Shown piece after piece: positions 20,701 to 40,150 of a DNA stretch of 41,348 bases. Origin of the DNA: Veillonellales bacterium. Lineage in GTDB: Bacteria; Bacillota; Negativicutes; JAAYSF01. Both the position numbers and the translations under genes were made by a program. Numbering within the stretch: the first letter of the stretch is position 1; every line of letters begins with the position of its first letter. Where the stretch lies: assembly GCA_039680175.1 (NCBI GenBank), contig JBDKTO010000066.1, positions 1 through 41,348 of the forward strand. The letters are read 5' to 3'. The notes under the pieces are model-generated. The model was not told where the DNA came from. It worked only from the letters and a program-made list of their open reading frames with translations, and did no database searches.

Positions 20701-23700
20701 TTGTGGCAGTAAGGCCTGCGGTATCTGCCAGACTGTAGTTTGATGCAAGTCCCCCGTTTTCTCCATCGGCTAAGGTATAACTCGCGGTTGCCGTTCGGCT
20801 GCCTGCATTCTGGCTGTCGAATACACCGGTTGCCGTGGCGCTGACGGTTTCACTTCCGACAAAGCCGGATAGGCTGCCTACGGTAATTGCCGCATCCACA
20901 GTACCATTATAGGTTTTATCAGCTGCCGTGCTACCGGTTACGGTTAAGGCTTTTTTGCCAATTGTAGCAGTAAGTCCGGCGGTATCTGCCAGACTGTAGT
21001 TTGATGCAAGTCCCCCGTTTGTTCCATCGGCTAAGGTATAACTCGCGGTTGCCGTCCGGCTGCCTGCATTCTGGCTGTCGAATACACCCGTTGCCATAGC
21101 GCTGACGGTTTCACTTCCGACAAAGCCGGATAGGCTGCCTACGGTAATTGCCGCATCCACAGTACCGTTATAGGTTTTATCAGCTGCCGTGCTGCCGGTT
21201 ACGGTCAAAGCCACCTTGCTGATGGTCAGCGCTGCTCCGGAATAGCTGATATCGTAACCCTGATTGTCTGTGGAGTATAGGTTAATATAATACGTGCCGG
21301 CATTTTTTTCGTTGCCGTTACCATAGACTTTGCCTGTTCCCAGCAGCGAGGTGTCAACAGTGCGATCCAGAGAATAGTTTGCTGGACCGGTGGTAACGGC
21401 AATGCCGTCATAGAGCTTAGAGCAGCTCTCCGCCGTCACCGTTAATGGCTTAAGAAAATCTCTCAGCAACGGATAGCTGTAGCCGTCGTAGATGCGCCAG
21501 ATCGCACTGATATCGCCGCCAACCGTCGCAATCTTCCAGTCGGAGGAATAATTGGTACTTTGCTCCATTTGAGTCAAAGTCAGCCCGCCTACACCGGAGA
21601 CAAGGGTATGGCTATCACCATTCACGCCAATGGCGCTAAGGCCGGAATTATTATCAGTACTCCAGTAGCAGCTTGTAACCTTACTGGTTCTGGAATCGCC
21701 CTGGGAATTTTCATTGTCGCCAACAAGACCGCCGACCATGTTGCTCTGAGGGGCGGAAGGATATCTCGAATTGACGCTGATTGAACCGACATTGTAGCAT
21801 TGATTGATAACTCCGCCATAATTATTATGACCGACCAATCCGCCTACATAGTAAGCGTAATTCCCCCCATGTACCGTGCCGGTAGTATAACAATACTGGA
21901 TAAGGCCTTGGCTAGGCTTGTTAAAGCCTATATTTTCGCCAACCAATCCACCTACATATTCATCGCCAGTTACTTTGCCGGTATTATAGCTATATTGAAG
22001 GCTGCCTTGGCTAAACCCGGCCAGCCCGCCAACTTGGTATACTCCTGCCACGTCGGCGGTATTATAGCAATACTGGACAGCACCATTCGTAGTTATCCCA
22101 CCGATCAAGCCCCCAACGTGATCAGCCCGACTGGTTACCTTGCCGGTAGTATGATAGCAGTGTGAAACCGTGCCGCCGTTGTGCTCGCCGAGCAAACCAC
22201 CTGTATACATCCCATTGGACTCGCTGGTTACCGTACCGGTACTGTAAGAATCGTTGACATTTCCCCAATTGTACCCCACCAGCCCGCCAACGATGGCGTA
22301 ATAGCAACCGCTGGAATCTTGAACAAAAGCCTTGGAAAGCACCGTGCCCGTAGCGTAGCAGTTTGTGATGCTACCGCCGTTATTGCTGCCCACAAGGCCG
22401 CCGACATTCTCACCTTTCACCCAGTAATCGATGGATTCAATGTAGTCAGGCAACGTTACATTACCACTGCTGTAGCAGCTAGTGATCGCAGCGGTGTTAT
22501 AACCGATCAACCCGCCGATGTTATTTCCGCCGCCTGTTACGCTTCCCGTACTGTAGCTGTCGGAAACGGCACCCGTGTTATAGCCAATTAAACCGCCAAC
22601 ATTGCCTGCGGTTGACGACACCAAACCGGTGCTATAGCTGGTATCCTTAACCGTTCCGGTGTTATAGCCAATGAGCCCACCGGTATAACTCCCGGTTGAC
22701 TTCACATCACTGGTGTTATAGCAGCCGCTGATCGTACTGGTGTTATAACCGATCAGCCCGCCGACATAAGCCGCACCACCGCTGACGCTTCCCGTGCTGT
22801 GGTAACCAGAAACGGCACCGAGGCTATTATTATAACCGATTAAACCGCCGACGGTTCCTCCGTTTGACGTCACCGAACCAGAGCTGTAACTTTTGTCCTT
22901 ATCTGCACCGGTAACCGTACCCGTATTATAGCCGATTAAACCGCCAACGTAAATTTGGTCGCTGGTGCCGGTCATCGTCACGGCACTATCGTTGTAGCTG
23001 TCTTCGATCAAAGCAGCGTTCCAGCCAACTAATCCGCCGATATAACTATTGCTCGACGTCACCGAGCCAGTTTTGTGCCAACTGCCACTGATAGTACTCT
23101 TATTATAACCTACTAGGCCGCCGACCCACGACACGCCTTTAACAGTTCCCGTACTATAGCAAACGCTGATGGTGCCTGAGTCATTATTCCCCACTAGCCC
23201 GCCAACATAATTTGTGCCGATAATATTTCCCGTGCTCCAGCTACCGGTGATTTGGCCGCCGGTGTTATATCCCACCAACCCGCCGGTATAATTTGTGCTG
23301 GATTCTACCGTAGAGGAACTGAAAGAGTTAGCAATCTTTGCCGAGTTATAGCCTACCAGGCCGCCGGTGTATACATATTTACTCGACTGGCTTGTTCTGA
23401 TCACCGTTCCGCTGCTGCTGGAGTCGGAAATGCTGGCTTTGCTATCTTCGTTGGCGCCCGCCAGGCCTCCCATTGATTTTCCGTTGGTGCTCACCGTTAC
23501 CGACACAGCACTGGTGGAAGCGGTGATCGTGCCGTAATTATCCCCTACCAGCCCGCCGACATTTTTCGTGCCGCTTACCGTTCCTGCGCTATTACAATTT
23601 TCTATGGTACCATTGTTATAACCCACCAGAGCGCCTACGCTGCTACCGCTACCGGTGATGTTGACGTTTGTCAAGCTGATGTTGCGAATAACCGCCGTAC

Positions 23701-25642: not shown

Positions 25643-25695
25643 TGTGCCTTCCTCCTTGTCTATCTTAACTTTTACGTGCTATGGGTAACGAGGAT

Positions 25696-25794
25696 TTGTC
25701 ATTGCGAACGCAGCGAAGCGGAGTGCGGCAATCCCTCTGACCTAAGGCGCAGCACCGGAGATCGCCGCGTCGCTATCGCTCCTCGCGATGACAA
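25696..25794. repeat. Dispersed palindromic repeat between tpsB and tpsA
   Basis: A 99-bp imperfect palindrome begins TTGTCATTGCGAACGCAGCG and ends in the near complement GCTCCTCGCGATGACAA; inner segments GCGGCAATC and GATCGCCGC also pair. This TCATTGCGA...GGCAATC pattern is a known kind of interspersed palindromic repeat in many genomes, often mis-annotated as a peptide reading CERSEAECGNPS. It fills most of the 162-bp tpsB-tpsA gap and could fold in the mRNA, affecting the expression ratio of the two genes. Confidence 0.75.
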
Positions 25795-25804
25795 TAAGGA
25801 TGGT

Positions 25805-27493
25805 TTAAAAATATTTTATCGTTTGCAGCCAGACGCGCCCGTTGTCGTCGGGAGCCGAGGCTGCCGGATTGTCGGTGGTAATCTTCCAGGCGTAATCGAG
25901 ACGCACAGCATAGCCGTCCGGGCTGTTCCAGATGAGGCCGAGCCCGGCGCCGGCCAGGACGCGTTTATTCTCCCCCGCTCCGGCCCAGGAATTTTTATTG
26001 ATCCGGGCTTTGCCGTTATCGTAAAAGGCAGCCAGTTGGAAGTTGGGCTTTGGCAGATTCCAGCGGAATTCTCCGGTAAAGAGATAGCCTTCGTCGCAAG
26101 AGGCTTCACCGACCGGATAGGCCCGTACGCCGGTGGGGCCGCCAAGCTGCAGTTTTTCCGAAGAGTCCAGGTTTTTATCGGACAGTTGGCCGGTAAAAGA
26201 AGCATACAGGGTTAATCGGTCATTGATGTACTGGAGCCGCCTTCCGGTCATTTCGGTTTTGCCGAAGCTGCCGCCGGCCTTGGCATTGGCGTCGCTGGCG
26301 ACGGCGTCGCCCGAATCAAGGCTGAGATCACCTTTTTCATAAGTCAGGCTGAAGCTGTTGACTCCGCCGCCGCCAAAGTTGTCCCGGCTGTCGCCGCTTA
26401 GGCCGAATACCCACACCTCGGCTCGTTTTCGGTTGTCGGAAGCGTTTCGGTCAATTTGATCCTTTAGCAATTTGTTATCGTATTCCACTCTGGCGTTCAG
26501 GTTGAAATCCCGGGAACGCTTGAGGGCAAAGGTTTCATAGAGGCTGGTGGTCTTCGACACGCCGCTGGCCCCCAGGGGGGCAAAGGTATTGCCCAGCAGG
26601 TAATGCATCTGTGAATAGCCTACGCCGAATTTGGCTCCCTCGCCGCCGGTGGGGATCAGATAATCGGTGCTGTAGTTGTACATCCCGCTGCCGGCGTACA
26701 CGCCGCCTACATTCAGGAGGTCGCCGCGACCGGAAAAGTCATTGATATTCAGGGAAACCCCGAGCCGGTTCTTGCCAGTATAACAGTTGCCCCAGTTGTC
26801 GGCGTAAGTCTGGCCGTTTATTTTCGCGGTATCGGTGATGGCGACGACAAGATCGGAGGTGCCGGCGTCCACGCCGGGGACTAACGTCGCTTTGACGCTG
26901 ACGCCGCTCAGGTCATTCAGAAAGAGCAGTGTCCGGTCAAGCTTGTCCTTCTGGACATAGTCGCCGCTGTTGAGGCCGCTCAAAAAGTTTACTGCCACAG
27001 CGGTTTTCAGGCCGGAGTGATTCTGGATGTCGATTTTGCCGTACCGGCCGATGATGACGGCGATTTCGACAACGCCGTCTTTTACGGCCTGAGCCGGGAT
27101 ATAACCATTAGCCACCAGATAGCCCTGTTGGCGAAGGTGCTGGGTGATTTTAGCGGCAAGGTTATTGAGATCCGTCAGAGTCAGTTCCCTGCCCGCCTCG
27201 CTGGCTACCAGCGCTAACAGTTCTTCCTGTGGTACCGGCGGCAGCGCCCCGGTAATCCGAAAGCTGCTTACGGCAATTCTTTGACCGCCACCGTTTTCTG
27301 CCGCCGCTTTCTGACCTTCGACGGTAATTTGCGGTGTCTCATGCACCGGCTGCTGCAGAACCGGCTGTTTGTTCCCCCCCAGTACGATGCCGGCATCCGG
27401 CTGCACTGCGGCATAAACCGGGCAGGCTGCCATGGATAGCAGCGTTAAACCGGTGAGAATTCGTTTTTTGTGCTGTGCAAAGTTGTTAAGCAT
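25805..27493 (-). CDS. TpsB-type outer-membrane transporter (FhaC/ShlB family)
   Basis: This outer-membrane barrel exports the TpsA partner. A signal peptide (LTGLTLLSMAACPVYA) is followed by POTRA-like domains (about residues 50-205; ITGALPPVPQEELLAL ... QGYLVANGYIPAQAVKDGVVEIAV) and a C-terminal 16-strand barrel. The LQLGGPTGVRAYPVGE segment matches the conserved L6-loop motif (VRGY-like), and the protein ends in aromatic F as outer-membrane proteins do. At about 562 residues it is normal length. The start ATG at 27493 follows AAGGAG; a TTG at 27511 overlaps the ribosome site and is rejected. It lies 162 bp upstream of tpsA in the same direction. Confidence 0.94.
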   Translation of the reverse strand: MLNNFAQHKKRILTGLTLLSMAACPVYAAVQPDAGIVLGGNKQPVLQQPVHETPQITVEGQKAAAENGGGQRIAVSSFRITGALPPVPQEELLALVASEAGRELTLTDLNNLAAKITQHLRQQGYLVANGYIPAQAVKDGVVEIAVIIGRYGKIDIQNHSGLKTAVAVNFLSGLNSGDYVQKDKLDRTLLFLNDLSGVSVKATLVPGVDAGTSDLVVAITDTAKINGQTYADNWGNCYTGKNRLGVSLNINDFSGRGDLLNVGGVYAGSGMYNYSTDYLIPTGGEGAKFGVGYSQMHYLLGNTFAPLGASGVSKTTSLYETFALKRSRDFNLNARVEYDNKLLKDQIDRNASDNRKRAEVWVFGLSGDSRDNFGGGGVNSFSLTYEKGDLSLDSGDAVASDANAKAGGSFGKTEMTGRRLQYINDRLTLYASFTGQLSDKNLDSSEKLQLGGPTGVRAYPVGEASCDEGYLFTGEFRWNLPKPNFQLAAFYDNGKARINKNSWAGAGENKRVLAGAGLGLIWNSPDGYAVRLDYAWKITTDNPAASAPDDNGRVWLQTIKYF

Positions 27494-27604
27494 TGATTTC
27501 TCCTTTTTCAATATACTTTTGGGGTGAAATGTAAGCTATATAAGTCCCTGCTATTGGCTGTTCACTATCTTCAGCCGCGTGCTATTCACTTTAGCTAATT
27601 GCTC

Positions 27605-28089: not shown

Positions 28090-28743
28090 TTAAAAATTCA
28101 GATGGGAAATATGGGCGAGCAACTGTGTCCGGTTCGTCAAATGAAGCTTGCCGATAATCTCGTTCACATGATAGCACACGGTTCTTTCACTGATGGTAAG
28201 CGCCGCACCGATTTCTTTATACGTCATCCCCTGGGCCAGCAAATTCAGTACCTCGGCCTGACGGGGACTCAACTCCGGCTGTTCCGGCACTGCCGGCTTT
28301 ACAGGCTGTTTTTCGCCAGTGCTCCGGTCTTGGGCGGCAAACTCCCGCAAAATCCGCTTCGCCATTCCTGAGGCCAGCACTGCCTCACCGGCGGCCAGCC
28401 GCCACAGCTCCGTCAAAAATTGCTGTGAATTCATGCCCTTAAGCAAATAGCCGGATGCTCCGGCCCGGATCGCAGCGAATAAATGCTCATCATCTTCCGA
28501 TACCGTCAGCATGACAATCTCTATTGCCGGAAAGTCCCGTTTGATCAATCGTGTGGCTTCAATCCCGTCACAGCCGGCCATCTGGACATCCATGACAATC
28601 ATCTCCGGCTGAAGCATCGCGACCTTGTTCAAAGCCTCCAGGCCACTCCCCGCCGTACCGATTACCTCGATGCCGTTGTCCTGCAAAAAGCTTTTCAGCC
28701 CTTCCAGATATAAAAAGTTATCATCAACCAACAGTAATTTCAT
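28090..28743 (-). CDS. NarL/FixJ-family response regulator
   Basis: An N-terminal receiver (residues 1-120) has the acidic pair VDDN (D7, D8), phospho-acceptor D52 in VMDVQM, and the conserved Thr in MLTVSEDDE. A C-terminal LuxR-type HTH (about 153-217) reads LSPRQAEVLNLLAQGMTYKEIG ... SERTVCYHVNEI. It is a DNA-binding transcription regulator. The ATG at 28743, with GGGAGGG 8 nt upstream, lies inside the end of the kinase gene (20-bp overlap), so kinase and regulator are translationally coupled. Its position just upstream of the TPS genes makes them the likely target. Confidence 0.94.
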   Translation of the reverse strand: MKLLLVDDNFLYLEGLKSFLQDNGIEVIGTAGSGLEALNKVAMLQPEMIVMDVQMAGCDGIEATRLIKRDFPAIEIVMLTVSEDDEHLFAAIRAGASGYLLKGMNSQQFLTELWRLAAGEAVLASGMAKRILREFAAQDRSTGEKQPVKPAVPEQPELSPRQAEVLNLLAQGMTYKEIGAALTISERTVCYHVNEIIGKLHLTNRTQLLAHISHLNF

Positions 28744-30436
28744 GGCTTTGCCCTCCCTTGCCAAGGGGCAGCCGGACAGTCACCCGTGTCCCGGCACCCG
28801 GAGCAGAATCTATTCTCAGCCCCCCGCCGATCTCGCCGGCCCGCTCCTGCATAATACTGAGACCGTGACGGTTATCTTTAGCAGCAAGCACAGCCGGATC
28901 AAAACCGCTGCCATCGTCTTCAATCACAACGACAGCCTGTCCCTCAGCGATATAAAATGATACGGTAGCCTGACTGGCACAGGCGTGTTTACGAATATTG
29001 GCCATGGCTTCCTGAATAATCCGCAGCAACTGCAATTCCACGCTCGGCGAGAACTGCGCCGCAATTTCCGGGGAAATCAGCAAATCGGTATGAATCCCAT
29101 AGGTACGCTCGTACCATTCTATAAACTCATGAAGCGCCGGCACAAGCCCTTTGCCGGAACCGGACTTCAATCCGGCCAGCGACTCGCGGACACTGCGATG
29201 AAAGTCGCCGCTGAGCGCCACCAGCTTCTGCAGTCTGCTGTCAGCTTCGTCCAGCCGCCGCCCGGCCAAAAGATTGCGCAGCTGCTCATACTGCAGTTTC
29301 AAATAGCTCCAAATCTGGCCCGACCCATCATGCAGTTCCCGCCGCAGCCGGTCCCGCTCGGTCGCGATGACCAAGGCTTTTTGCTGCTCGGCAATCCGGG
29401 CCTGCGCCTTTTTCAACTCCGTAATATCCTCCAAAACGATGGCCTTGCCCATCTCATGGTTTCTCCAGCCCGTAAGCGGCGTAACCCGATAAAGATAAAA
29501 ACCGCCAGCCAGCGAAATCCCGCCTGTCCGCACCTCCCGGCCGCCAGCCAGTTCGGCCAAAGCCGGCCAAGGAGCCAAGGCCGTCGCCGCCCAGCTGCCG
29601 GTCAGGCCCGTCTTCTGTCCGCCCAGCAATTGCTCTGCGGCCGGATTTACTTCTACAATATAATCCTGATCATCCAAAATAATCAGACTGTCGTTCATGT
29701 TATGCGTAACCGCAGTTTGGGCCAACTGCGCCAGGTTAAGAACCCGCAGGCGGACAAAAATCCACGACCAGATTATGCCGCTCAGCAGAAAAGCCAGCGG
29801 CAGCGGCGGTATGACCCTGTCCTGATCAATGACCCATAATATATGCCCGGTCACCGCTATCAACGGATTGCTCGGCAGGGCCGCGAACTGCCACCGCCTG
29901 AGGCCCTTAAAACGAAACGCCAAAACAATACACAGAAGACAAACCAATAAGAACTGAAGATAGCCGATAATGGTGATTCCCCAGTAGATCGGCCCGCGGA
30001 TGATGCCGAAAGTCGTCCCGTCCCAGACCACCCCCCGCCAGTATCCCCCGTGCCAGCCGGTAGTTAAGAGCGCCAGCATGCCAAAAGCAGACGCCGCAAC
30101 CAATATCCCCACGGCGATTTTCGTAGCCCGGGTGTTTTCCCCGGCGAGATTCACAACAAACAAAAGAAAAATCGGAATGAAAGCCAAAGCGCTCAATTGT
30201 TGTATTCTAACCCAAAAAATCTTATCCTCCGGCGCAAGGCTGACAGTAACCATGACTAAAGATAACAGGAATACCGCCCTGAGGGACAGTCCAAAAATCC
30301 AATACCGCGCCGCCATCATCCTCCGGTACTGCCAGGCATACCCTGCTATAGCCGCCAGTGCTGCTGCCGCCAGTAAATAAACCCATATCTCTTTAATTGG
30401 GTAATAAATCATGATCTGCAGCGACGATTCATTCAT
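28724..30436 (-). CDS. Membrane histidine kinase (7TM N-terminus, PAS, HisKA_3)
   Basis: Seven hydrophobic helices occupy about residues 10-230, resembling the 7TMR-HISK_N sensor fold. A PAS domain follows (MNDSLIILDDQDYIVEVNPAAEQLLG). The HisKA_3 dimerisation box RRELHDGSGQ carries the phosphorylated His (about 369), and the HATPase domain has NIRKHA, EDDGSGFD and HGLSIMQERA. This is the NarX/DegS/LiaS class, which pairs with NarL-type regulators such as the one it overlaps. I chose the ATG at 30436, preceded by AAAGG; an ATG at 30493 also exists but has a weak site. The signal sensed is unknown. Confidence 0.93.
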   Translation of the reverse strand: MNESSLQIMIYYPIKEIWVYLLAAAALAAIAGYAWQYRRMMAARYWIFGLSLRAVFLLSLVMVTVSLAPEDKIFWVRIQQLSALAFIPIFLLFVVNLAGENTRATKIAVGILVAASAFGMLALLTTGWHGGYWRGVVWDGTTFGIIRGPIYWGITIIGYLQFLLVCLLCIVLAFRFKGLRRWQFAALPSNPLIAVTGHILWVIDQDRVIPPLPLAFLLSGIIWSWIFVRLRVLNLAQLAQTAVTHNMNDSLIILDDQDYIVEVNPAAEQLLGGQKTGLTGSWAATALAPWPALAELAGGREVRTGGISLAGGFYLYRVTPLTGWRNHEMGKAIVLEDITELKKAQARIAEQQKALVIATERDRLRRELHDGSGQIWSYLKLQYEQLRNLLAGRRLDEADSRLQKLVALSGDFHRSVRESLAGLKSGSGKGLVPALHEFIEWYERTYGIHTDLLISPEIAAQFSPSVELQLLRIIQEAMANIRKHACASQATVSFYIAEGQAVVVIEDDGSGFDPAVLAAKDNRHGLSIMQERAGEIGGGLRIDSAPGAGTRVTVRLPLGKGGQSHEITVG

Positions 30437-30853
30437 CAGCAAAAGCCTTTCTTCCATCAAGATGATGGGGGAAATTCCCATGACTATCTTCATTGACTTC
30501 GATTAATTATGTGTTTATTATTCGACAGTTACCAACTATCCCCTTCCACCTTTCCTTTTCGTTTCCTTCTTCGGCCGATGAATGCAGCAAGCATGTTAAG
30601 GCATTCAACATAAGCGAAGCAACGATTGCGGCTTGCATTTTGTGCTTATCTCAATGTCCCGATTTTTATCAAATTATTTACCGCTTTAGAAACCGTATAT
30701 TTCGTCTATAGAAAATAACAAAAAAAGATATGTTTCCCCTATCACTCCGGTTTATTTGAGGAAACATATCTTCTTCTTCCTGTCAACACATCATATCATG
30801 GTGCATTCACTGGTTCCATACACTATCTTTCGGTTGCTTTCCTTTGCGGGAGT
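30437..30853. other. Intergenic region upstream of the kinase, with a terminator at its right end
   Basis: This stretch should hold the promoter of the kinase operon on the minus strand, but no consensus -35/-10 pair is evident. Apart from the terminator at 30720-30772 and a possible longer kinase N-terminus reaching 30493, I see nothing that can be called. Confidence 0.4.
30720..30772 (-). terminator. Terminator of the ferritin-like gene
   Basis: AAGATATGTTTCC (30725-30737) pairs exactly with GGAAACATATCTT (30760-30772) across a 22-nt loop. On the minus strand the stem is followed by a T run. It lies about 80 bp past the stop of the ferritin-like gene. Confidence 0.8.
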
Positions 30854-31619: not shown

Positions 31620-32135
31620 TTAATTTGTTTTATATACTGCCTTCTCTTCTTCAGGAATACGAATACATAGAAGAAGCAGTGCATTACATAAACTTGCTAA
31701 TACTGCTGTAAAAATTGCATTACAGAGCAAAGGTATACTCAGCATTTCTATCGCCACGGCAATATAATTAGGATGCTTTACAAATCTATACGGTCCCGTG
31801 CGTAAGGGTTTATTTCCGGGAATCACTAAAATCCTTGTATTCCAATAATTCCCCAAACTAATAATACACCAATACCGAAGAATTTGTGCATTTATCAATA
31901 ATATACCCCAAATATACCAATACCTATTTATCGTCCAGCCATTAACATAACATTCTAATATCCAGCCTAAAATCCAGCTGGTATGCAGAATAAAAAACAT
32001 GTAATAATGACCTGCTCCATATTCGAGTGCTCCAAGTTTTATTACCGCTTTGCGATTGCGGTTAGCAATATAGAGTTCAACGGCCCTTTGACAAATAATG
32101 ATTGCTGCTAAAATAAAAATTATTGCTTTTACCAT
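31620..32135 (-). CDS. Isoprenylcysteine carboxyl methyltransferase-family membrane methyltransferase (BpsB-like)
   Basis: This 171-residue membrane protein has about four helices and the ICMT-family C-terminal signature: TGPYRFVKHPNYIAV (Arg-His-Pro-Asn-Tyr SAM and substrate region) followed by RIPEEEKAV. Its start overlaps the end of the type III PKS gene by 7 bp. In B. subtilis the same pair (bpsA-bpsB) makes alkylpyrones and methylates them to alkylpyrone methyl ethers. By this parallel it most likely O-methylates the PKS product in the membrane. Confidence 0.88.
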   Translation of the reverse strand: MVKAIIFILAAIIICQRAVELYIANRNRKAVIKLGALEYGAGHYYMFFILHTSWILGWILECYVNGWTINRYWYIWGILLINAQILRYWCIISLGNYWNTRILVIPGNKPLRTGPYRFVKHPNYIAVAIEMLSIPLLCNAIFTAVLASLCNALLLLCIRIPEEEKAVYKTN

Positions 32136-33175
32136 TTAAATAGCACCTGCTCCGCACTAAACCCAGGACCTAAAGCTAACAGTACACCGTACTTTCCTTC
32201 TTTTATATTTTGGGACATAAAATCCTTTATTTCAAATAAAATAGAAGCACTTGACATATTCCCAAAGTCGTGCAAATTTTGCCTTGCATATCGTAGTGCC
32301 TCGTCTGTCAAGCCAAGGCTTTCTTTATAAGCCTCTATGACTTTTGCTCCACCCGGATGGACAATATAATGCTCTATTTCTTTTGATTCTATCGTCCAAG
32401 CATTACAAGCCTTATTTAGTAATTCCGGCAAACATTTTTTTATAATGTGCGGGATAGTTTTAGAAAACCGAACCTTCAAGCCAGTTTCTATAATATCCCA
32501 TCCCATAATGTCTGCCGAGTTAGGAAATAAATGGCTAAAACTATCTACTATTTCTGGTCCTTTCCCTCCTACTGACAGTAATACAGCAGCTGCCCCATCA
32601 CTAAAAATGCTAGCACCTACTAAATTAGCTTTTGAGAAATCATCTCGTTGGAAAGTTAGGCTGCATAACTCTAATGCCACTAATAATACCGATTTCCCTT
32701 TTGTTATTCCAGCTATTTCCGCCGCCCGTGCTAAGCCTGATACGCCGCCGGCGCACCCCAGTCCCCAGATAGGAATACGTTTACTATTCTCTGGCAAACC
32801 AAGTTTTTGTGTTAGACTGGCATCAATAGTAGGTGTAGCAATTCCTGTAGACGAAACAAAAATGATTGCCCCGATATCTTTAGGCTCTACTCCAGCCTCT
32901 GTCATAGCTGCCCGACTGGCCTTTTCTACTAAATCTATTCCCACTAGTTGATAGATTCGATTAGCCTCGGTAAAAGAATGTTCTTCTTGATACCAATGTA
33001 ACGGCATCGATACATACCGTTTACTAATATGACTGTTATCAAATACTGCAAGCAAACGATTTATATCTTTATACGACTGTCCAAATGCTCTAAACGCAAA
33101 GGCCTTTCCTTCTTCTTGTGATATTGCATATTGCGGTGTCGCAGTACCTATAGCTTGTATTTTTATATTTCCCAT
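32129..33175 (-). CDS. Type III polyketide synthase (BpsA/chalcone-synthase-like)
   Basis: This 348-residue homodimeric ketosynthase has the full catalytic triad: Cys141 in GLGCAGGVSG, His273 in YIVHPGG, and Asn306 in FGNMSSASI. The GFSAEQVLFKW C-terminus and the GxLGPGFS-type loop (ALGPGFS) fit the chalcone synthase superfamily. It would extend fatty acyl-CoA or acyl-ACP starters with malonyl units to alkylpyrones or alkylresorcinols. It is coupled with the methyltransferase gene, and separated from the next gene upstream by a strong terminator, so the pair forms its own operon. Confidence 0.94.
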   Translation of the reverse strand: MGNIKIQAIGTATPQYAISQEEGKAFAFRAFGQSYKDINRLLAVFDNSHISKRYVSMPLHWYQEEHSFTEANRIYQLVGIDLVEKASRAAMTEAGVEPKDIGAIIFVSSTGIATPTIDASLTQKLGLPENSKRIPIWGLGCAGGVSGLARAAEIAGITKGKSVLLVALELCSLTFQRDDFSKANLVGASIFSDGAAAVLLSVGGKGPEIVDSFSHLFPNSADIMGWDIIETGLKVRFSKTIPHIIKKCLPELLNKACNAWTIESKEIEHYIVHPGGAKVIEAYKESLGLTDEALRYARQNLHDFGNMSSASILFEIKDFMSQNIKEGKYGVLLALGPGFSAEQVLFKW

Positions 33176-33245: not shown

Positions 33246-33286
33246 AAAAAAAAAGAGAAAAAACGGTCTATGCATTCGACCGTTTT
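33246..33286 (-). terminator. Terminator of the seven-gene cluster
   Basis: AAAACGGTC (33260-33268) and GACCGTTTT (33278-33286) form a 9-bp stem with a 9-nt loop; on the minus strand it is followed by TTCTC and a long T run. It lies about 40 bp past the alpha/beta hydrolase stop and separates the cluster from the PKS operon. Confidence 0.88.
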
Positions 33287-33326
33287 TATCATTATAAACT
33301 ATTTGAGGAATATATTCTGTATCGCC

Positions 33327-34112
33327 TTAAAAATTCATTTTAGCCCCAAAAAAATCAATATTTTCCTGAGCTACTAACATACGATCATTATCAATTGTCA
33401 CCATATGGTAGGAATTTTGTAACAAAACTTTTCTGATTTCAGTCGAACCCACATGAGTTTGTACATAATCAGCATTTTTTACACTCGCGGTATCATCTTC
33501 GTTAGCATGAATTAGCAGTAAGGGCGTCTTAATGCACGGCATATGTTTTTTTACGCGGCTAATTAGCCGAAAATTCTGATCCATTACTACCCCGGGCACT
33601 TCATCATAGACTAACGTTGCTGTATTCGTCTGAACTATTTTTCGCAGCCGTTCATTTTTAATTCCATAAGGCGGTCGCTCTGAAAAGGAATAAATATATT
33701 TTACCGGGGTATAATACGCCAACGGGATCAAAAATGAATACCATGGGATGGTCCAGCCGTCATAGAATAAAGTGGTTGACATCAAGGATACTGCCGGTAT
33801 TTCTTTAAATTCAAAAGATAACTCCAGTGCCAGCACTGCCCCCATACATAAACCGGCAATACCCACTTTGTGATGACTTTGTTTCAATCCAAGATAGCGC
33901 TCACGGACCCGATCATACCAATTCTGCCACCGTGTATTTTTCAGTGCCTCGATCGTTTGGTTATGCCCAGGAAGGCAAGGAGCTGAAACAGTGAAACCTG
34001 CTTTATTTAATTTTTCGGCTAAAAACTTCATTTCGTAGGGATTGCCTGTCAAGCCATGAATAAGCAGCACAGCTTGTTCACCGCCTGGCAAATCAATATC
34101 ATATTTATTCAT
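33327..34112 (-). CDS. Alpha/beta hydrolase with Cys nucleophile (carboxylesterase/acyltransferase-like)
   Basis: This 261-residue protein resembles carboxylesterase/monoacylglycerol-lipase-type hydrolases: LLIHGLTGNPYEM oxyanion loop near residue 18, a nucleophile elbow, HANEDD (D206/D207) and the catalytic His in NSYHMVT (H236). The elbow reads GLCMG, with Cys89 (TGT) where a Ser is expected. Cys nucleophiles occur in dienelactone hydrolases and PHA synthases, so this may be an acyl-transfer or thioester-using enzyme rather than a simple esterase. It has no signal peptide. It is the last gene of the cluster, 87 bp after the aminotransferase. Confidence 0.85.
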   Translation of the reverse strand: MNKYDIDLPGGEQAVLLIHGLTGNPYEMKFLAEKLNKAGFTVSAPCLPGHNQTIEALKNTRWQNWYDRVRERYLGLKQSHHKVGIAGLCMGAVLALELSFEFKEIPAVSLMSTTLFYDGWTIPWYSFLIPLAYYTPVKYIYSFSERPPYGIKNERLRKIVQTNTATLVYDEVPGVVMDQNFRLISRVKKHMPCIKTPLLLIHANEDDTASVKNADYVQTHVGSTEIRKVLLQNSYHMVTIDNDRMLVAQENIDFFGAKMNF

Positions 34113-34199
34113 TTTGCCACCATACTTTATCTAAATATCAAATCTCATTTTTTTAATAAACGTGCTGAGGAAAATTCATCCCCAGCACACCATACTCAA

Positions 34200-35582
34200 T
34201 CAATGTCCAAGCCGTTTAAGAAGCTTTTCAAACAACTTGATGAATAAGTCGATTTCTTCATAGGTAATTGTAAGGGATGGCGCCAAAGTAAATACATTTT
34301 TATAGTAGCCGCCAATATCAAGCACCAATCCATAATCTTTGCCATCTACTTCAATATCGCCCTTCATTGCCTCATCGACAATAGCGTCAGCAAGCTGTTT
34401 ATCCGGAGTAAATCCGTCGGTTTTGGTCATTTCAATGCGCAGCGCCAAGCCTAACCCGTCAACATCGCCAATAACATTATGACGTGATTTTAACTTTTTA
34501 AGCTGCTCCAACAAATAGGCCCCCTTCTCAGCAATGCTATGCTCTATGTTATGTTTTTTGCAGTATTCCAGTGTCGCCAAACCAGCCGCCGTACCTAATG
34601 GATTGCTGGCAAAGGTTGAATGAGTAGATCCGGGTGGGAATTTTTTCGGATTAATCATGTCTTCCTTTGCCCACATGCCAGAAATCGGATTCAAGCCGTT
34701 CGTCAGCGCCTTGCCAAACACAATGACATCAGGATCAATAGCAAAATGCTCGGCTGACCACAACTTCCCGGTACGATAGAACCCCATCTGAATCTCATCA
34801 ACCACAAGTAAAATGTTATGCCGTTTTAAAATAGCTTGCAGCTTGCTAAAATATTCTTTGGGAGGAATAATATATCCCCCCGTCGCTTGAATAGGTTCAA
34901 TATAAAACGCTGCAAACTCAGCTTCATTAACTTTAGGATCAAGGATGCCATAATATTCCGTTTCAAACAATTTTTCAAACTGCTTAATGCATTCATAACC
35001 ACACGTTTTGGTTTGTTTGCCATAAAAGCAACGATAGCAATACGGAAAAGGAATAAAATTGGCACGATTGCCAAAATGCCCATACCGGCGACGATAACGA
35101 TAGCTGCTGGTAATTTCCGATACAGCAATTGTCCGACCATGATAACCTCCCATAAAAGCAAACATGGATGATTTACCATGAGTATAATTACGGACTAATT
35201 TCAGGCTGTCTTCTACTGCCTGCGCGCCACCGACATTAAAATGTATTCGTCCTTTTGAACCAAAACGTTTTTCCGTTTCCGTCGCAATTTCATATGACAG
35301 CATAATTTTTTCCTTGTGCAGATATTGGCAAGCAAGCTGCGGCAACTTGTCCATTTGTTTTTTGTAACCTGCTTCGATTTCGGCATTCCTATAGCCAAAG
35401 TTTACTGCCGAATACCACATTTGCATATCCAAATAAGGCTTGTCTGCTCTGTCAAAAAGCCATGAACCTTCACAATGATCGAAAATTTTGGCTGGATCAA
35501 TATAATGTACCGTGTCTCCATACGAACAATATTTTGCCTCAATTTCCAACAGTTGATTGTCATTCATTTCTTTCCAATTCAT
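34200..35582 (-). CDS. Class III PLP-dependent aminotransferase
   Basis: This 460-residue fold-type I aminotransferase carries GGAQAVEDSLKLVRNYT (PLP phosphate loop), the GGYHGRT motif, VVDEIQMGFYRTGK (PLP-binding Asp), and the Schiff-base Lys in VFGKALTNG at about residue 290. The internal Cys-rich segment CYRCFYGKQTKTCGYEC is unusual among textbook members and appears in a subset of 4-aminobutyrate/diamine-type enzymes. The amino group it moves is likely at the omega or terminal position of a diamine, amino acid or aldehyde; exact substrate unknown. It lies 33 bp after the HAD phosphatase gene. Confidence 0.9.
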   Translation of the reverse strand: MNWKEMNDNQLLEIEAKYCSYGDTVHYIDPAKIFDHCEGSWLFDRADKPYLDMQMWYSAVNFGYRNAEIEAGYKKQMDKLPQLACQYLHKEKIMLSYEIATETEKRFGSKGRIHFNVGGAQAVEDSLKLVRNYTHGKSSMFAFMGGYHGRTIAVSEITSSYRYRRRYGHFGNRANFIPFPYCYRCFYGKQTKTCGYECIKQFEKLFETEYYGILDPKVNEAEFAAFYIEPIQATGGYIIPPKEYFSKLQAILKRHNILLVVDEIQMGFYRTGKLWSAEHFAIDPDVIVFGKALTNGLNPISGMWAKEDMINPKKFPPGSTHSTFASNPLGTAAGLATLEYCKKHNIEHSIAEKGAYLLEQLKKLKSRHNVIGDVDGLGLALRIEMTKTDGFTPDKQLADAIVDEAMKGDIEVDGKDYGLVLDIGGYYKNVFTLAPSLTITYEEIDLFIKLFEKLLKRLGH

Positions 35583-35615
35583 TTTGGTAACCTCGTTTCA
35601 TTTTAATATAATCTG

Positions 35616-36269
35616 TTATGCAATAACATTCTTTTCAATCTGCTGTCTACGCAGATTCTCCTTAATATCTCGAAAATCAGTGTACACGTAATGAGGTATG
35701 TTTTCTTGTATACAATAATCGACTAAGTTTGCTTTAGCATAAACAAAATCAGCTACGCTTGCCAAACAAAAATCACTTCGACCATCGCCGATAAGATAGA
35801 CAGGTAAGCCTTGTGCTGCCTTCTTAGCGGTATGGCATTTACATGTTCCTGCCTTACAACGCGCATAAGAATAGGGATAGGTAGTCACCAGTTTTTTATT
35901 AACAGAGCGAAGTTCATTTGCAATAACCGGCAGTCCCGATAGACCATTTTGGGCTAAAATATACTCAATAAAGACTTGAAAGCCATCACTAATGATAGCA
36001 AAAGGAACTTCCTCTTGCTGCAATTGCCGAACAAATTCAATAAAGGTAGTGTCGATTTCAATATCTTTCACAAAAGTCAAAATTTCCGCTAAAGGTGCAT
36101 CAATTAAGGCGAATTGTTTACTCAAGCATTCTTGTGACCCTATCATTCCTTGCTGCCATATTTGTTCAATTTCCAACCACTTTGGCAAAGCAAACATCTC
36201 AAGCACAGCATCAGTCACATCAGATTTGGCAACTGTGCCATCAAAATCAATGGCAAAAAAATAATCCAT
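35616..36269 (-). CDS. HAD-superfamily phosphatase, MtnX-like
   Basis: This 217-residue protein shows the HAD motifs in order: DFDGTVAKSDVT (motif I, nucleophile and acid Asp), IISDGF (motif II), a Lys region near AKK, and LIGDGRSDFCLA (motif IV). The spacing and the WLEIEQIWQQGMIGSQECL cap region resemble MtnX (2-hydroxy-3-keto-5-methylthiopentenyl phosphatase) and phosphoserine-phosphatase-like HAD-IB enzymes. No methionine-salvage genes are nearby, so the substrate is probably another small phosphate ester. A Cys-rich stretch (CKAGTCKCH) around residue 138 is notable. GGAAGGGAG precedes the ATG. Confidence 0.85.
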   Translation of the reverse strand: MDYFFAIDFDGTVAKSDVTDAVLEMFALPKWLEIEQIWQQGMIGSQECLSKQFALIDAPLAEILTFVKDIEIDTTFIEFVRQLQQEEVPFAIISDGFQVFIEYILAQNGLSGLPVIANELRSVNKKLVTTYPYSYARCKAGTCKCHTAKKAAQGLPVYLIGDGRSDFCLASVADFVYAKANLVDYCIQENIPHYVYTDFRDIKENLRRQQIEKNVIA

Positions 36270-36383
36270 GTTATGAACTCCCTTCCACTAAAAACATAAG
36301 ATCCTAATTATGTAGATAGTAAATTATTCATTTAAATCGTGGCAGAAAATTCGCCTGCACCCTCCTTTCTCCCTCAAGCAATA

Positions 36384-36746
36384 TTAACGGCTAACAAAGT
36401 AAGCACCCCCACAAATAAGTAAAATGCCCACCATTCTTGAAAGGGTAAAGTTTTCGTGAAAGATAATACAGCCAACAGCAATTGCAAATATATAATTAAG
36501 CGAGGTAAGCGGAACAACCACACTGAGATCACCGCTTTTGAGAATAAAAATCCACAATAACAGATCAATGGCGCTAATTGCCACGCCAAACAAAATTAAG
36601 GGATTTTGTATGACTTCACCTATCCACAGCAAGACTTCCTGGGTATTTTGCGGCGTTATTAGAGAGCGGGTACCCAATTTTATTAAAATCTCGCCAGTCG
36701 AATTGATGCAACACCATAGCACGATTAGGATCAGCAAGTGCTTCAT
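36384..36746 (-). CDS. Small EamA/SMR-type membrane transporter
   Basis: This 120-residue protein has four predicted helices (about 3-22, 41-66, 74-95 and 100-118), with the pattern PLTSLNYIFAIAVGCIIFHENFT...GILLICGGAYFV typical of the drug/metabolite transporter superfamily half-unit (ArnE/SMR-like). Such proteins work as dimers to move small molecules or lipid-linked sugars. It lies 6 bp after the acyltransferase-like gene, so it is co-translated with it. In this cluster it could flip or export the pathway product; this is inference. Confidence 0.8.
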   Translation of the reverse strand: MKHLLILIVLWCCINSTGEILIKLGTRSLITPQNTQEVLLWIGEVIQNPLILFGVAISAIDLLLWIFILKSGDLSVVVPLTSLNYIFAIAVGCIIFHENFTLSRMVGILLICGGAYFVSR

Positions 36747-36752
36747 TGTTTA

Positions 36753-37859
36753 TCACCTCGTCTTATGTTTGCCTTGTATTTTTTCTAACGCTTTACGATC
36801 AGATTCAAAAACACCGGATAAATGAGCTAGCCCTCGTCGCAATAAGGGGTTGGCCGGATAAATCGCATGTTTGGTAAAGACAAAATGTGCGCCAAGATAA
36901 GCTTTAATTTCCGGGCTTGTCCATCCAAAGATGGCATATTTACAAGAATGATCCAGAGCATACTGCAGTATATCAAACCAGCTAACAAAATAAAGATTGT
37001 TTTCGCGAAATGCAGGGTACTCTGCCCCCATGTATTTATCAATTATGTACTCGCCGCGATGAAAACATAAGAAATACCCGATACAATGTCCTTGATAAGA
37101 ATACTCAAAAACCAAGCCTCCTGAAGTGTCGTCATTTAGCACTTTTGCAAAAAAAGTCCTAGACAATTTATCAAAATGAATTCTACTATTTTTATAAACA
37201 TTCTCATAAAGCCTATAATACGAGTTAATTTTATCGGAATTACAGAACTGCAAATCGCCCGTAGAAATTATCTGTAACTCAAGATCGCTGCGTTTTCTGA
37301 GTTTACGCCGGAAATTAGAACGATGCCTTTTGGAAAAGCGCGATAGAAACTCCGTTTCCGAGGTAAAATTAATTGGAACATAAGCCAATGCTTGACCTTC
37401 AATGAGTACAAAACCGGCAGCGGTCAAAGAACTGCAAATTTTATCTGCTAGAATAATTTCTTCAGCCGACAGAAAAGGGGCTTCTGTCGCAATATCTTTT
37501 ACAATCAAGAACTTCACGTGCTCTTCGGCCATTTTATTTAGCAAGACAGGTTTTAGTTCTTGCAAGTTGATTTCTGCCGGAAACAACGCAAATTCCGACA
37601 CGGTTGTCCCAATAAACAGTGCTCGGCGGCGAAATAAAAAATTGCAAAACTCGTCAGGAAGAAATCGACTTACAAAATGAACAAAATTTTGAATGGATTC
37701 GTCGGCAGTCAATAACAAGTCAAAATCAGTAGCAAATGCCGGTATTTGTTTTCCATTGAGTGCAACAAAGCAACTTTTAAAATCAGTCGGAGGGTTATAA
37801 AGAAAAGCATCAATTAACATCGTCGGTTCTAATTGAAATAATAAAAAGTCGTTATTCAT
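36753..37859 (-). CDS. GNAT/FemAB-like acyltransferase
   Basis: This 368-residue protein has a C-terminal GNAT-fold domain (about 165-345). The segment FSKRHRSNFRRKLRKRS followed by Y..YENVYKNSRIHFDKL and YQGHCIGYFLCFHRGEYIIDKYMGA resembles the BioF2-like/FemAB-type acetyltransferase group that transfers aminoacyl or acyl groups. The N-terminal 160 residues are less conserved and have no membrane segment. It probably transfers an acyl or aminoacyl group to an amine or glycan. It is followed 6 bp later by the small membrane transporter gene. Confidence 0.78.
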   Translation of the reverse strand: MNNDFLLFQLEPTMLIDAFLYNPPTDFKSCFVALNGKQIPAFATDFDLLLTADESIQNFVHFVSRFLPDEFCNFLFRRRALFIGTTVSEFALFPAEINLQELKPVLLNKMAEEHVKFLIVKDIATEAPFLSAEEIILADKICSSLTAAGFVLIEGQALAYVPINFTSETEFLSRFSKRHRSNFRRKLRKRSDLELQIISTGDLQFCNSDKINSYYRLYENVYKNSRIHFDKLSRTFFAKVLNDDTSGGLVFEYSYQGHCIGYFLCFHRGEYIIDKYMGAEYPAFRENNLYFVSWFDILQYALDHSCKYAIFGWTSPEIKAYLGAHFVFTKHAIYPANPLLRRGLAHLSGVFESDRKALEKIQGKHKTR

Positions 37860-37888
37860 CCTGAAATTCTCCCATTTTCAGCTAGGCC

Positions 37889-38725
37889 TTAGCCGTTTAT
37901 TTTCAAAGCTTCCAGCAATAATAAATTAACGCGGCTTTGACAATCCAGTGCTTCGCTCGCGGACATTTTTTCCCTCAAAGCCGGATGATCCCAGTCTGAT
38001 AGCAATCGCTTGATCGAGTGGCCGGTAAGTTTACTTCGTCTGGAATATTCACCAGTAATGTCAACTCCAATCAAGTCAAGGGCATCAGCTAAAGCGGCAA
38101 GGTTGGACTCTAAAACAGGCAGTGTCATGATACCGTTATCCCAGTCACCCGGCGCTTCTTCAGCCGTTAATACATCTTTATCGATACTTATATAAACAGG
38201 CACATTGACCATTTTTAATGTATTCACGGCCAAGTTAAGTGCTGCCTGATAAGCCGCTAAATTCTTAGCAGGCACCGCCGGAATAACTCGTAACTTTCCT
38301 GAGCGCAACAAATGATTCAAGCTCAAAACTTTTCGCAGAAAACCATATTGCTCGGTCGAGCCGACATGAAGAATTTTTTTGCAATTTGGCAAACTGGCTG
38401 CATGGTACAACCAATTACCACAAGCATAACGGGGAAAACGGTAAGAACAATCGAGATGATTATCAAATACAACGAGAGAAAAGGGAGTGCGAAGCTCCTC
38501 CAATATAACCAAAGTAAGATGATGAAAGTCGCCTGACCCTAAAAAGCGGCATACCCCTGCAGCAGAAAAAGGCGAGAATAGGCGATTACGGCATTTTCTG
38601 ATAGCATTCTTTTGGGCGAAATATTGCAATTCATCCCGCAGATCACGTAGGTCAATTTGAGCGGCTGTCAGCAAGGCTGTTAACCGCTGCAAACTGTCAT
38701 CCGTATGAACTATAACTTTTTTCAA
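37889..38725 (-). CDS. Arginase/ureohydrolase-fold protein
   Basis: This 278-residue protein keeps the six metal-ligand positions of the arginase superfamily in altered settings: a His in GSGDFHH (normally GGDHS), FDNHLDCS (D-x-H-x-D) and SIDKDVL (S-x-D-x-D), with IGVDITGEYS later. Ureohydrolases cleave guanidino compounds to amines and urea, or act as deacetylase-like hydrolases. The departure from normal arginase/agmatinase motifs suggests a separate subfamily and substrate. The start is the TTG at 38725, preceded by AGGAGG at a good distance (MKKVIVHTDDS); an ATG at 38752 would run through that ribosome site. Confidence 0.82.
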   Translation of the reverse strand: MKKVIVHTDDSLQRLTALLTAAQIDLRDLRDELQYFAQKNAIRKCRNRLFSPFSAAGVCRFLGSGDFHHLTLVILEELRTPFSLVVFDNHLDCSYRFPRYACGNWLYHAASLPNCKKILHVGSTEQYGFLRKVLSLNHLLRSGKLRVIPAVPAKNLAAYQAALNLAVNTLKMVNVPVYISIDKDVLTAEEAPGDWDNGIMTLPVLESNLAALADALDLIGVDITGEYSRRSKLTGHSIKRLLSDWDHPALREKMSASEALDCQSRVNLLLLEALKING

Positions 38726-38791
38726 CAAATAAGCCTCCTGCCAACTGAGCATACAACTAGAAATAATACATTCAATTCTTTTATTAGATTA

Positions 38792-39724
38792 TTACTGCTC
38801 AATAACTTTATTGAATTTTACAGTGTGTGTAATCTGCGTTAAGGACTGTACAATTATTTCACCAATTTTATCAAGTAAACTATATCGCTTTCGATAAAGA
38901 TTACGTTTATGAGATACCACGTCTTCTATGTTTTTTCGCGGATCGGTTATTAGAATTTCAAAAAAGCGAGGATCATTGTTAACGTTTCCTCCAGTTTCAT
39001 TCCAAAATTTATCTAAAGATGTTTTTAGTTTTCGGTTCCGGCGCAAATGATTATTGGTATAAAAGCCATAGTTAGATACAGCGTATATTTCACTTATGGA
39101 TAAAACTTGCGCTAGGATACGCAGAGCATACAAAATTAGATTTTTGGGGCGATAACCAAAAAAATACTTAGTTATTTCTTTATTAATGGCCAAACCGTCC
39201 CGTGAGCCTTGTAAAGCCCCAATGTATAGAGAAAGAGTGCTGTTCATGTCAGAAACAATCCAGAAATTTGTATGATATATATATTTATTATCCAGTTTCA
39301 GGCCTAAACTCATTGTGCCTTCTCTAATTTCACCGTCGCGAAACGCTAAATCAATAGCCAAGTTTTGCCCTTTATAATTTTCGCTCCAAAGCTGAAGTCC
39401 AGATCCAAAATAAATTTGCCGTAAGGCATGTTCTGTAAATTGGTTCTCCCAAAATAACAGGCTGTGTGTGATAACGGTCAACCTCTCCGAAGTAGTGGAG
39501 TTTTTATAAAAAAATTGACGTGTGAGTTGAGCAAAAACCAAGGGATGCACCGCGCTGATTTCGCGACGCAAAGGATTAAGCTGGAAAAAGTTATTTAACA
39601 GTTGCACTTCTTTATGATGAAGTAACGATCTAATTACAAATACCAGCACACACCGATAATTGATCCACCTTTCACAATGGTAAAGGCGTGTCCCTAATTT
39701 AAACAAACTTATCATTTTTATCAA
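38792..39724 (-). CDS. VirK/YbjX family (DUF535) protein
   Basis: This 310-residue protein is recognised as DUF535 by HPLVFAQLTRQFFYKN, REGTMSLGLKLDN, IGALQGSRDG, and the C-terminal YAVSNYGFYTNNHLRRNRKLKTSLDKFW segment read in parts. VirK and YbjX affect outer-membrane properties and antimicrobial-peptide resistance in enterobacteria; the biochemical activity is unknown. It is the first gene of the co-directional run, 39-66 bp upstream of the arginase-like gene depending on its start. The TTG start at 39724 is 8 nt from GGAG; an ATG three codons later is too far away. Confidence 0.85.
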   Translation of the reverse strand: MIKMISLFKLGTRLYHCERWINYRCVLVFVIRSLLHHKEVQLLNNFFQLNPLRREISAVHPLVFAQLTRQFFYKNSTTSERLTVITHSLLFWENQFTEHALRQIYFGSGLQLWSENYKGQNLAIDLAFRDGEIREGTMSLGLKLDNKYIYHTNFWIVSDMNSTLSLYIGALQGSRDGLAINKEITKYFFGYRPKNLILYALRILAQVLSISEIYAVSNYGFYTNNHLRRNRKLKTSLDKFWNETGGNVNNDPRFFEILITDPRKNIEDVVSHKRNLYRKRYSLLDKIGEIIVQSLTQITHTVKFNKVIEQ

Positions 39725-40150
39725 ATTTCATACTCCTTCATCTTCATCATTTTATCGGTCATTGCGATTAATTACTTCTACTTTTTCAATACCCCGCCAG
39801 AGATACGAAATATTATCTATACCCCAATATGATCGAAAGCTATCATCGAATTTGCGGGTGATCACAAAGGAAAAGAATGTCATCCCTTCAGACGACATTC
39901 TGCTAAAGGTGCTCTATCTATCAACCCAGGATGTGATGTGAAATGAGCAGGCCAAGTTCAGAACTGAGACACACTTTACTCCAGCTGTCCATTGTCTTCT
40001 GTTCAACTTAGCCTGTCTTGAACAGTTTTAAGGTAATTGCCACACTGTCCCTCTCCGCAAGTAAATTATGTCAAAACCCGCCAGATAGAACAATAGCACT
40101 AAGGTGCCATATTATAATATGGCACCTTAGTGCTATTAAAGGGGCATTGC
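39725..40150. other. Intergenic region before the seven-gene cluster
   Basis: This 426-bp region should contain the cluster promoter; no clear -35/-10 pair was found (TATAGATAAT near 39815 on the minus strand is a weak candidate). It also holds the 46-bp palindrome at 40092-40137. The stretch 39950-40080 has a coding-like, more mixed composition and could be a worn insertion-sequence end, but I could not support that. Confidence 0.4.
40092..40137. repeat. Perfect 46-bp palindrome
   Basis: AATAGCACTAAGGTGCCATA continues through a TTATAA centre into its exact complement, giving two 23-base arms with no loop. It lies 14 bp beyond the stop of the membrane LuxR gene. As RNA it would form a very stable hairpin, so it may terminate that gene, although no T run follows on either strand. 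It could also be a protein-binding site or a mobile-element relic. Confidence 0.85.

Follow-up and report, generated by a model that had tools for sequence, protein, structure and literature searches.

The window, which is the whole stretch of 41,348 nt that was analysed, contains seven minus-strand ORFs at 33327-39724, exactly where the preliminary description had placed them. From the VirK end to the hydrolase end, the ORF coordinates give intergenic gaps of 39, 29, 6, 114, 33 and 87 bp, and hairpin folding places one terminator after the hydrolase gene (-12.7 kcal/mol, z -2.95). The layout described earlier, with gaps of 6-114 bp and a single closing terminator, is thus confirmed, and Pfam agrees with the family label given to each of the seven genes. 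The features of the unit and its borders are:

38792..39724, minus strand: VirK/YbjX (DUF535) protein, first gene of the unit (Pfam DUF535)
37889..38752, minus strand: arginase-fold hydrolase, ARG (Pfam Arginase; metal site; AF2 model)
36753..37859, minus strand: Fem/MprF-type tandem-GNAT transferase, GNAT (Pfam FemAB_like; AF2; hhalign)
36384..36746, minus strand: small SMR/EamA transporter, ArnE/ArnF-like, putative flippase (Pfam EamA; NCBIfam ArnE/ArnF below cut-off)
35616..36269, minus strand: MtnX-like HAD-IB phosphatase, HAD (NCBIfam; motifs; adjacency to AT)
34200..35582, minus strand: class III PLP aminotransferase, AT, marker gene of the operon (Pfam Aminotran_3; family-specific loop)
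33327..34112, minus strand: alpha/beta hydrolase, ABH, monoacylglycerol-lipase-like (Pfam Hydrolase_4; nearest solved relatives)
about 33248..33288, minus strand: Rho-independent terminator closing the unit (10-bp hairpin and long U tract)
39874..39901, minus strand: 12-bp-stem hairpin, terminator- or attenuator-like, in the VirK leader upstream (hairpin scan and folding)

The terminator stands between the unit and a type III PKS-like gene (32129-33175) and an ICMT-type methyltransferase gene (31620-32135), and these two are therefore ruled out as operon members. The two genes overlap by a few bases, the PKS-like gene is closest to DpgA with a score below the cut-off, and the pair resembles the bpsAB arrangement of B. 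subtilis. A membrane-LuxR-type gene precedes the VirK unit, and a 22-bp perfect inverted-repeat hairpin (40091-40138; -35 kcal/mol, z -9.7) lies just 3' of this gene. A promoter scan gave no useful signal, with 34 sites versus 26 expected. Further away are a two-partner secretion pair (17762-27511), made up of a 2626-aa exoprotein with TPS secretion, YDG and GLUG repeats and an FhaC/ShlB-type transporter, and, downstream of a ferritin-like gene, a 7TM histidine kinase with a NarL-type response regulator (28090-30493). The host is a diderm, with LpxC in its genome and FhaC and TPS genes in the window.

Six of the seven genes form a real and widespread operon that apparently has no name. Orthologues of the aminotransferase with 61-90% identity mark 89 loci in Nitrospirota, Pseudomonas, Rhizobiales, other Proteobacteria, cyanobacteria and a few class relatives; the search of genome contigs gave 80 loci at 61-75% AT identity (Nitrospirota, Deltaproteobacteria, Pseudomonas, Rhizobiales, Telmatospirillum, Magnetospirillum, cyanobacteria and others). 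The Pseudomonas protegens locus (L095, NZ_CP031396.1) has AT near 2091777-2093126. HAD lies within 6 kb of AT in 86 of the 89 loci (within 150 bp in 82), ABH in 81, GNAT in 44, ARG in 37 and the SMR genes in about half (SMRa in 44, SMRb in 53). At these 89 loci, none of the five families was found solely beyond 6 kb from AT. The joint recurrence of six of the seven families in different phyla puts the seven-gene set far beyond chance. The preliminary description had proposed a search for co-occurrence of the GNAT-like, arginase-like and EamA genes; this succeeds, across many phyla rather than mainly in the class of the window, in which 5 of 300 genomes have an AT orthologue (100, 90, 75, 74 and 64% identity, with the next sequences at 37%). 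A 398-genome sample of the phylum, largely outside that class, held no AT orthologue besides the window's own. Among 60 relatives, one other genome (G034) has an arginase-like match, and its locus is one run, GNAT-ARG-HAD-AT-ABH-SMR-SMR, with 64% identity to the window for AT, 41% for HAD and ABH, and 30% for ARG. In another genome (G014), GNAT is on a different contig from AT, and a search for an arginase found none.

The VirK/DUF535 gene is a local addition outside the conserved core. It matches Pfam DUF535 at 1e-66 (225.6 bits versus 27) and is the sole copy in the genome, and neighbourhood clustering of other loci gave no recurring family that contains VirK. The earlier view of a conserved, uncharacterised cluster of seven genes therefore holds for six, which recur among the 89 loci, and fails for VirK/YbjX. 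In Shigella, VirK/YbjX is regulated by PhoPQ, and loss of VirK leads to higher outer-membrane permeability and peptide sensitivity (PMC12562796). Klebsiella VirK caused no change in lipid A and had no effect on polymyxin susceptibility (PMC13109725).

Searches of open-licence PMC full texts by component names turned up no account of the operon, in agreement with the earlier remark that no named pathway with this set was known to its author. A role in anti-phage defence was considered and rejected, as PADLOC had no match for six of the proteins.

Gene content around AT is bimodal. The full set, defined as HAD, ABH, GNAT, ARG and at least one SMR, is present in 33 of the 89 loci; in the count by gene content, about 31 loci have everything and about 26 have HAD-AT-hydrolase alone near AT, some of them on short contigs. 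The trio must therefore work without the ARG-GNAT-SMR part. This pattern could mean that two independent modules are adjacent and share no product, a metabolic HAD-AT-hydrolase module and an envelope module of ARG, GNAT and SMR, and it would also fit with the placement of GNAT elsewhere in G014 and with three loci (L048, L078 and L101) in which ARG-SMR-GNAT-SMR stands as its own block. We consider such an arrangement quite unlikely, because both sets interleave in the rhizobial and window gene orders, ARG and GNAT distances track AT distances, and strong GNAT matches in the 300-genome class sample were found in three genomes, all AT-bearing. Protein distances correlate with AT distances in Mantel tests (r 0.83 for HAD, 0.80 for ABH, 0.79 for GNAT and 0.91 for ARG; 0 of 1000 permutations each), and since common ancestry of the genomes feeds these correlations, they show co-inheritance and not function.

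In other genomes, the neighbourhood also includes a two-component system, MipA/OmpV, a desaturase, KAS+ACP or a second SMR. In the annotated Rhizobium leguminosarum, Agrobacterium larrymoorei and Sinorhizobium plasmids, the order is RR/HK - HAD - AT - arginase - EamA - (fatty acid desaturase) - hydrolase - GNAT - EamA - (CFA synthase) - MipA/OmpV, with HK immediately after RR in the Agrobacterium larrymoorei and Sinorhizobium plasmids. The closest families of the Agrobacterium regulator pair are QseBC and PmrAB, with scores below the cut-offs. At Pseudomonas loci, ARG-SMR-SMR is accompanied by a divergent MipA, by HAD-AT-ABH-GNAT and by an NtrBC-like pair; ACP and a KAS are additional genes at Nitrospirota loci; hyphomicrobial loci have a DevABC-like exporter where the SMRs would stand; and a Bartonella plasmid has kept AT-GNAT-ARG alone. 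Two Mg-translocating P-type ATPases flank the G034 operon. The conserved set includes neither a glycosyltransferase nor a lipid-specific synthase.

Several loci depart from these arrangements. HAD-AT-hydrolase adjoins genes for a DevABC-like (glycolipid-type) ABC exporter, with no SMR genes, in L053, L058, L059, L061, L064 and L091 (family names tested for L064 only). In the cyanobacterial version (L092 and L077, judged by eye), AT is followed by genes for a small GNAT-like protein, a zinc-type alcohol dehydrogenase and SDR proteins. An ArnT-like glycosyltransferase fragment, also recognized by eye only, lies a few genes from HAD-AT-hydrolase in L033 (11901-13043, G073).

The trio around the marker gene has intact catalytic features. 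AT (Pfam Aminotran_3, 3e-74) falls in a separate clade and carries a loop, SSYRYRRRYGHFGxRA, that is present throughout its family and absent from paralogues; we infer from its Arg-rich sequence that this loop may bind a phosphorylated or acidic substrate. HAD (Pfam HAD, 1.4e-11) has the motifs DFDGT, SDG and GDGxSD and a conserved CxxGxCKC. It passes the NCBIfam 'MtnX-like HAD-IB' cut-off (91.4 versus 81.55 bits) and misses the equivalog cut-off for MtnX, the methionine salvage phosphatase (89.8 versus 303 bits). The nearest solved relatives of ABH (Pfam Hydrolase_4, 1.5e-12) are monoacylglycerol lipases and carboxylesterases. Its nucleophile is Cys in the window and in about 20 homologues and Ser in most. 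Because Cys is not a family trait and because of these relatives, a role as a hydrolase or in lipid turnover fits better than acyl transfer, the role that the preliminary description had suggested for the Cys hydrolase.

The arginase-fold protein is a putative ureohydrolase, judged by fold and metal ligands. It matches Pfam Arginase (1.5e-7) and has a complete dinuclear-metal site (H77/H78, D97-x-H99-x-D101 and D191-x-D193), with ligands kept across 24 sequences, one of them too short to cover the last pair. Its AF2 model aligns with arginases at Z 22 and rmsd 3.0 over about 240 residues. The protein thus has the fold and all six metal ligands of the arginase/agmatinase/proclavaminate amidinohydrolase superfamily, but it has only 12-15% identity in structural alignments, scores below the agmatinase cut-offs and carries motifs of its own, CGxW and WDxG; no NCBIfam equivalog cut-off was reached in the window or in other loci. 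The arginase fold would fit guanidinopropionase and metformin hydrolase too, and ureohydrolase, aminotransferase and phosphatase classes all occur in catabolism. The operon could then serve to break down or salvage a guanidino or amine compound and play no part in the envelope. This is highly improbable given the Fem-like transferase, ArnEF-like SMRs, MipA and PmrAB-like regulators, which are not catabolic, and given that neither a catabolic dehydrogenase nor an uptake system accompanies the cluster in a conserved way.

The transferase is a Fem/MprF-type tandem GNAT, a correction to the preliminary description, in which a GNAT acylates the amine. It matches Pfam FemAB_like (PF04339; 1.9e-8, above cut-off) and Acetyltransf_6 (3e-5), and K121, D122, R180, K275 and K319 are invariant among homologues. 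The AF2 model (pLDDT 93.9) has as its top matches the aminoacyl-tRNA-dependent synthases Sba18/Sbb17, FemX/FemA and MprF domains (Z 16-18), and N-myristoyltransferases follow at about 13; FemX gives Z 17.7 and the MprF domains give Z 16-17 with rmsd 3.6-4.2 over about 260 residues. In a single hhalign comparison with the Bacillota FemAB profile, the probability was 96.8% (E 2e-10). GNAT thus shares with FemABX both the fold and detectable profile homology, but it has no PF02388 match and its operon partners are amine-metabolism and SMR genes. Homology to the MprF synthase domain went undetected by profile (no PF09924 match; hhalign probability 2.6% against LPG_synthase_C), though the folds match. 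An acyl-CoA P-loop was also sought and rejected, since [RQ]xxGx[GA] occurs in 12 homologues only and at scattered positions. The tandem-GNAT fold of Fem and MprF proteins is that of aminoacyl-tRNA-dependent transferases. Therefore, on the modelled fold and the FemAB profile match, an aminoacyl-tRNA donor is at least as likely as acyl-CoA. A soluble LPG_synthase_C protein of about 300 aa is encoded elsewhere in the window's genome (L140; G000:C24).

The SMR protein (Pfam EamA, 1.7e-8) has ArnF (2.2e-8) and ArnE (2.9e-8) as its best NCBIfam families, yet it scores 34 bits versus cut-offs of 92-99, and SMRs in other loci are likewise below the cut-offs. The window has one SMR, unlike the SMR pairs in many hosts, and a second partner of its type was sought elsewhere in the genome and not found. 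Paired SMRs can export polyamines, as MdtIJ does, and one SMR of G034 matches MdtJ weakly. The product of the operon might be soluble, a small secondary metabolite or a compound akin to polyamines, and leave through the SMR or an ABC exporter, the envelope being only the exit route. Ureohydrolase and aminotransferase would suit polyamine chemistry, dehydrogenases and a small GNAT-like protein are present instead in a cyanobacterial version, and the best fold matches of GNAT include aminoacyl-tRNA-dependent synthases of the streptothricin pathway. We regard a soluble product as rather unlikely. The SMRs score best to ArnE/ArnF, the neighbours that recur (desaturase, CFA synthase, KAS+ACP, DevABC-like exporter and MipA) indicate a link to lipids and the envelope, and the phylum sample added no further AT orthologue.

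We favor, at a probability of roughly 0.58, the reading that the cluster is an operon for a pathway by which diderm bacteria modify their envelope: an amine-bearing compound would be made, (amino)acylated and flipped. The observations beneath it are the conserved neighbourhood, the enzyme classes, the intact active-site motifs and two predicted folds, and the make-(amino)acylate-flip outline is the best reading by analogy with Arn and MprF, although the enzymes here differ from theirs. AT, with its Arg-rich loop, would transaminate a carbonyl compound, probably phosphorylated, and HAD would then remove the phosphate to leave an amine or amino-alcohol. ARG could act on the precursor or on the added residue and hydrolyse a guanidino or amide group there, for example converting arginine to ornithine and urea. 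The Fem/MprF-type transferase would attach an aminoacyl group, or less probably an acyl group, to the amine itself or to an amine-carrying lipid, and the ArnE/ArnF-like SMR protein or proteins would flip the product to the periplasmic leaflet. The monoacylglycerol-lipase-like hydrolase might trim or recycle the product, as do aminoacyl-lipid hydrolases beside MprF-type synthases; LpiA-AcvB is a precedent for a hydrolase beside an aminoacyl-lipid synthase (PMC13197417). VirK/YbjX may serve a similar role as an accessory gene. Under cationic or low-Mg stress, the pathway probably makes the surface less negatively charged or less permeable. Its strongest steps are ArnEF-like SMR transport and Fem-type transfer; its weakest points are which amine is made and what the arginase-fold enzyme acts on. 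The earlier proposal of making an amine, acylating it and moving it to the envelope is thus supported in outline and in its envelope link, with the corrections that an aminoacyl donor is at least as likely as an acyl donor, that hydrolysis or lipid turnover suits the hydrolase better than acyl transfer and that VirK is outside the core.

In its logic, such a pathway would mix Arn (amine, SMR flippase and PmrAB-like control) with MprF (Fem-like transferase, flippase and hydrolase). The cluster shares with the Arn/Pmr L-Ara4N system (ArnBCADTEF) a PLP aminotransferase, a hydrolase and ArnE/F-like SMR flippase(s), and in rhizobial versions PmrAB/QseBC-like two-component control. However, its aminotransferase is class III (Aminotran_3) and not a DegT-type ArnB, there is no ArnA, ArnC, ArnD or ArnT among the window or annotated operon genes, and it adds a Fem-like transferase, an arginase-fold enzyme and a HAD phosphatase. 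With MprF and LpiA-AcvB it shares a tandem-GNAT transferase fold, a membrane flippase and a partner alpha/beta hydrolase. In contrast to those systems, the transferase is FemAB_like and not LPG_synthase_C, the flippase is a separate SMR, there are extra amine-making genes, and the hydrolase lacks any obvious signal peptide, AcvB being a periplasmic protein. Because the cluster resembles Arn and MprF in logic but fails the defining features of both, envelope amine modification by a distinct system has a real chance. We tentatively suggest, at somewhat less than even odds, a third envelope-charge system beside Arn and MprF, not described before. In it, the class III aminotransferase, the phosphatase and the arginase-fold hydrolase would build a new membrane compound bearing an amine, to which a free-standing Fem-type transferase would add an (amino)acyl group and which ArnEF-like SMRs would flip. 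The system would extend across Proteobacteria and Nitrospirota and to a few diderms related to the window organism.

If this is true, an unstudied means of altering the cell surface is present in many bacteria of soil and plants, among them Pseudomonas protegens and Rhizobium. The gene set is defined and present in genetically tractable species, and the pathway would bear on cationic-peptide and polymyxin resistance and on plant and host interaction.
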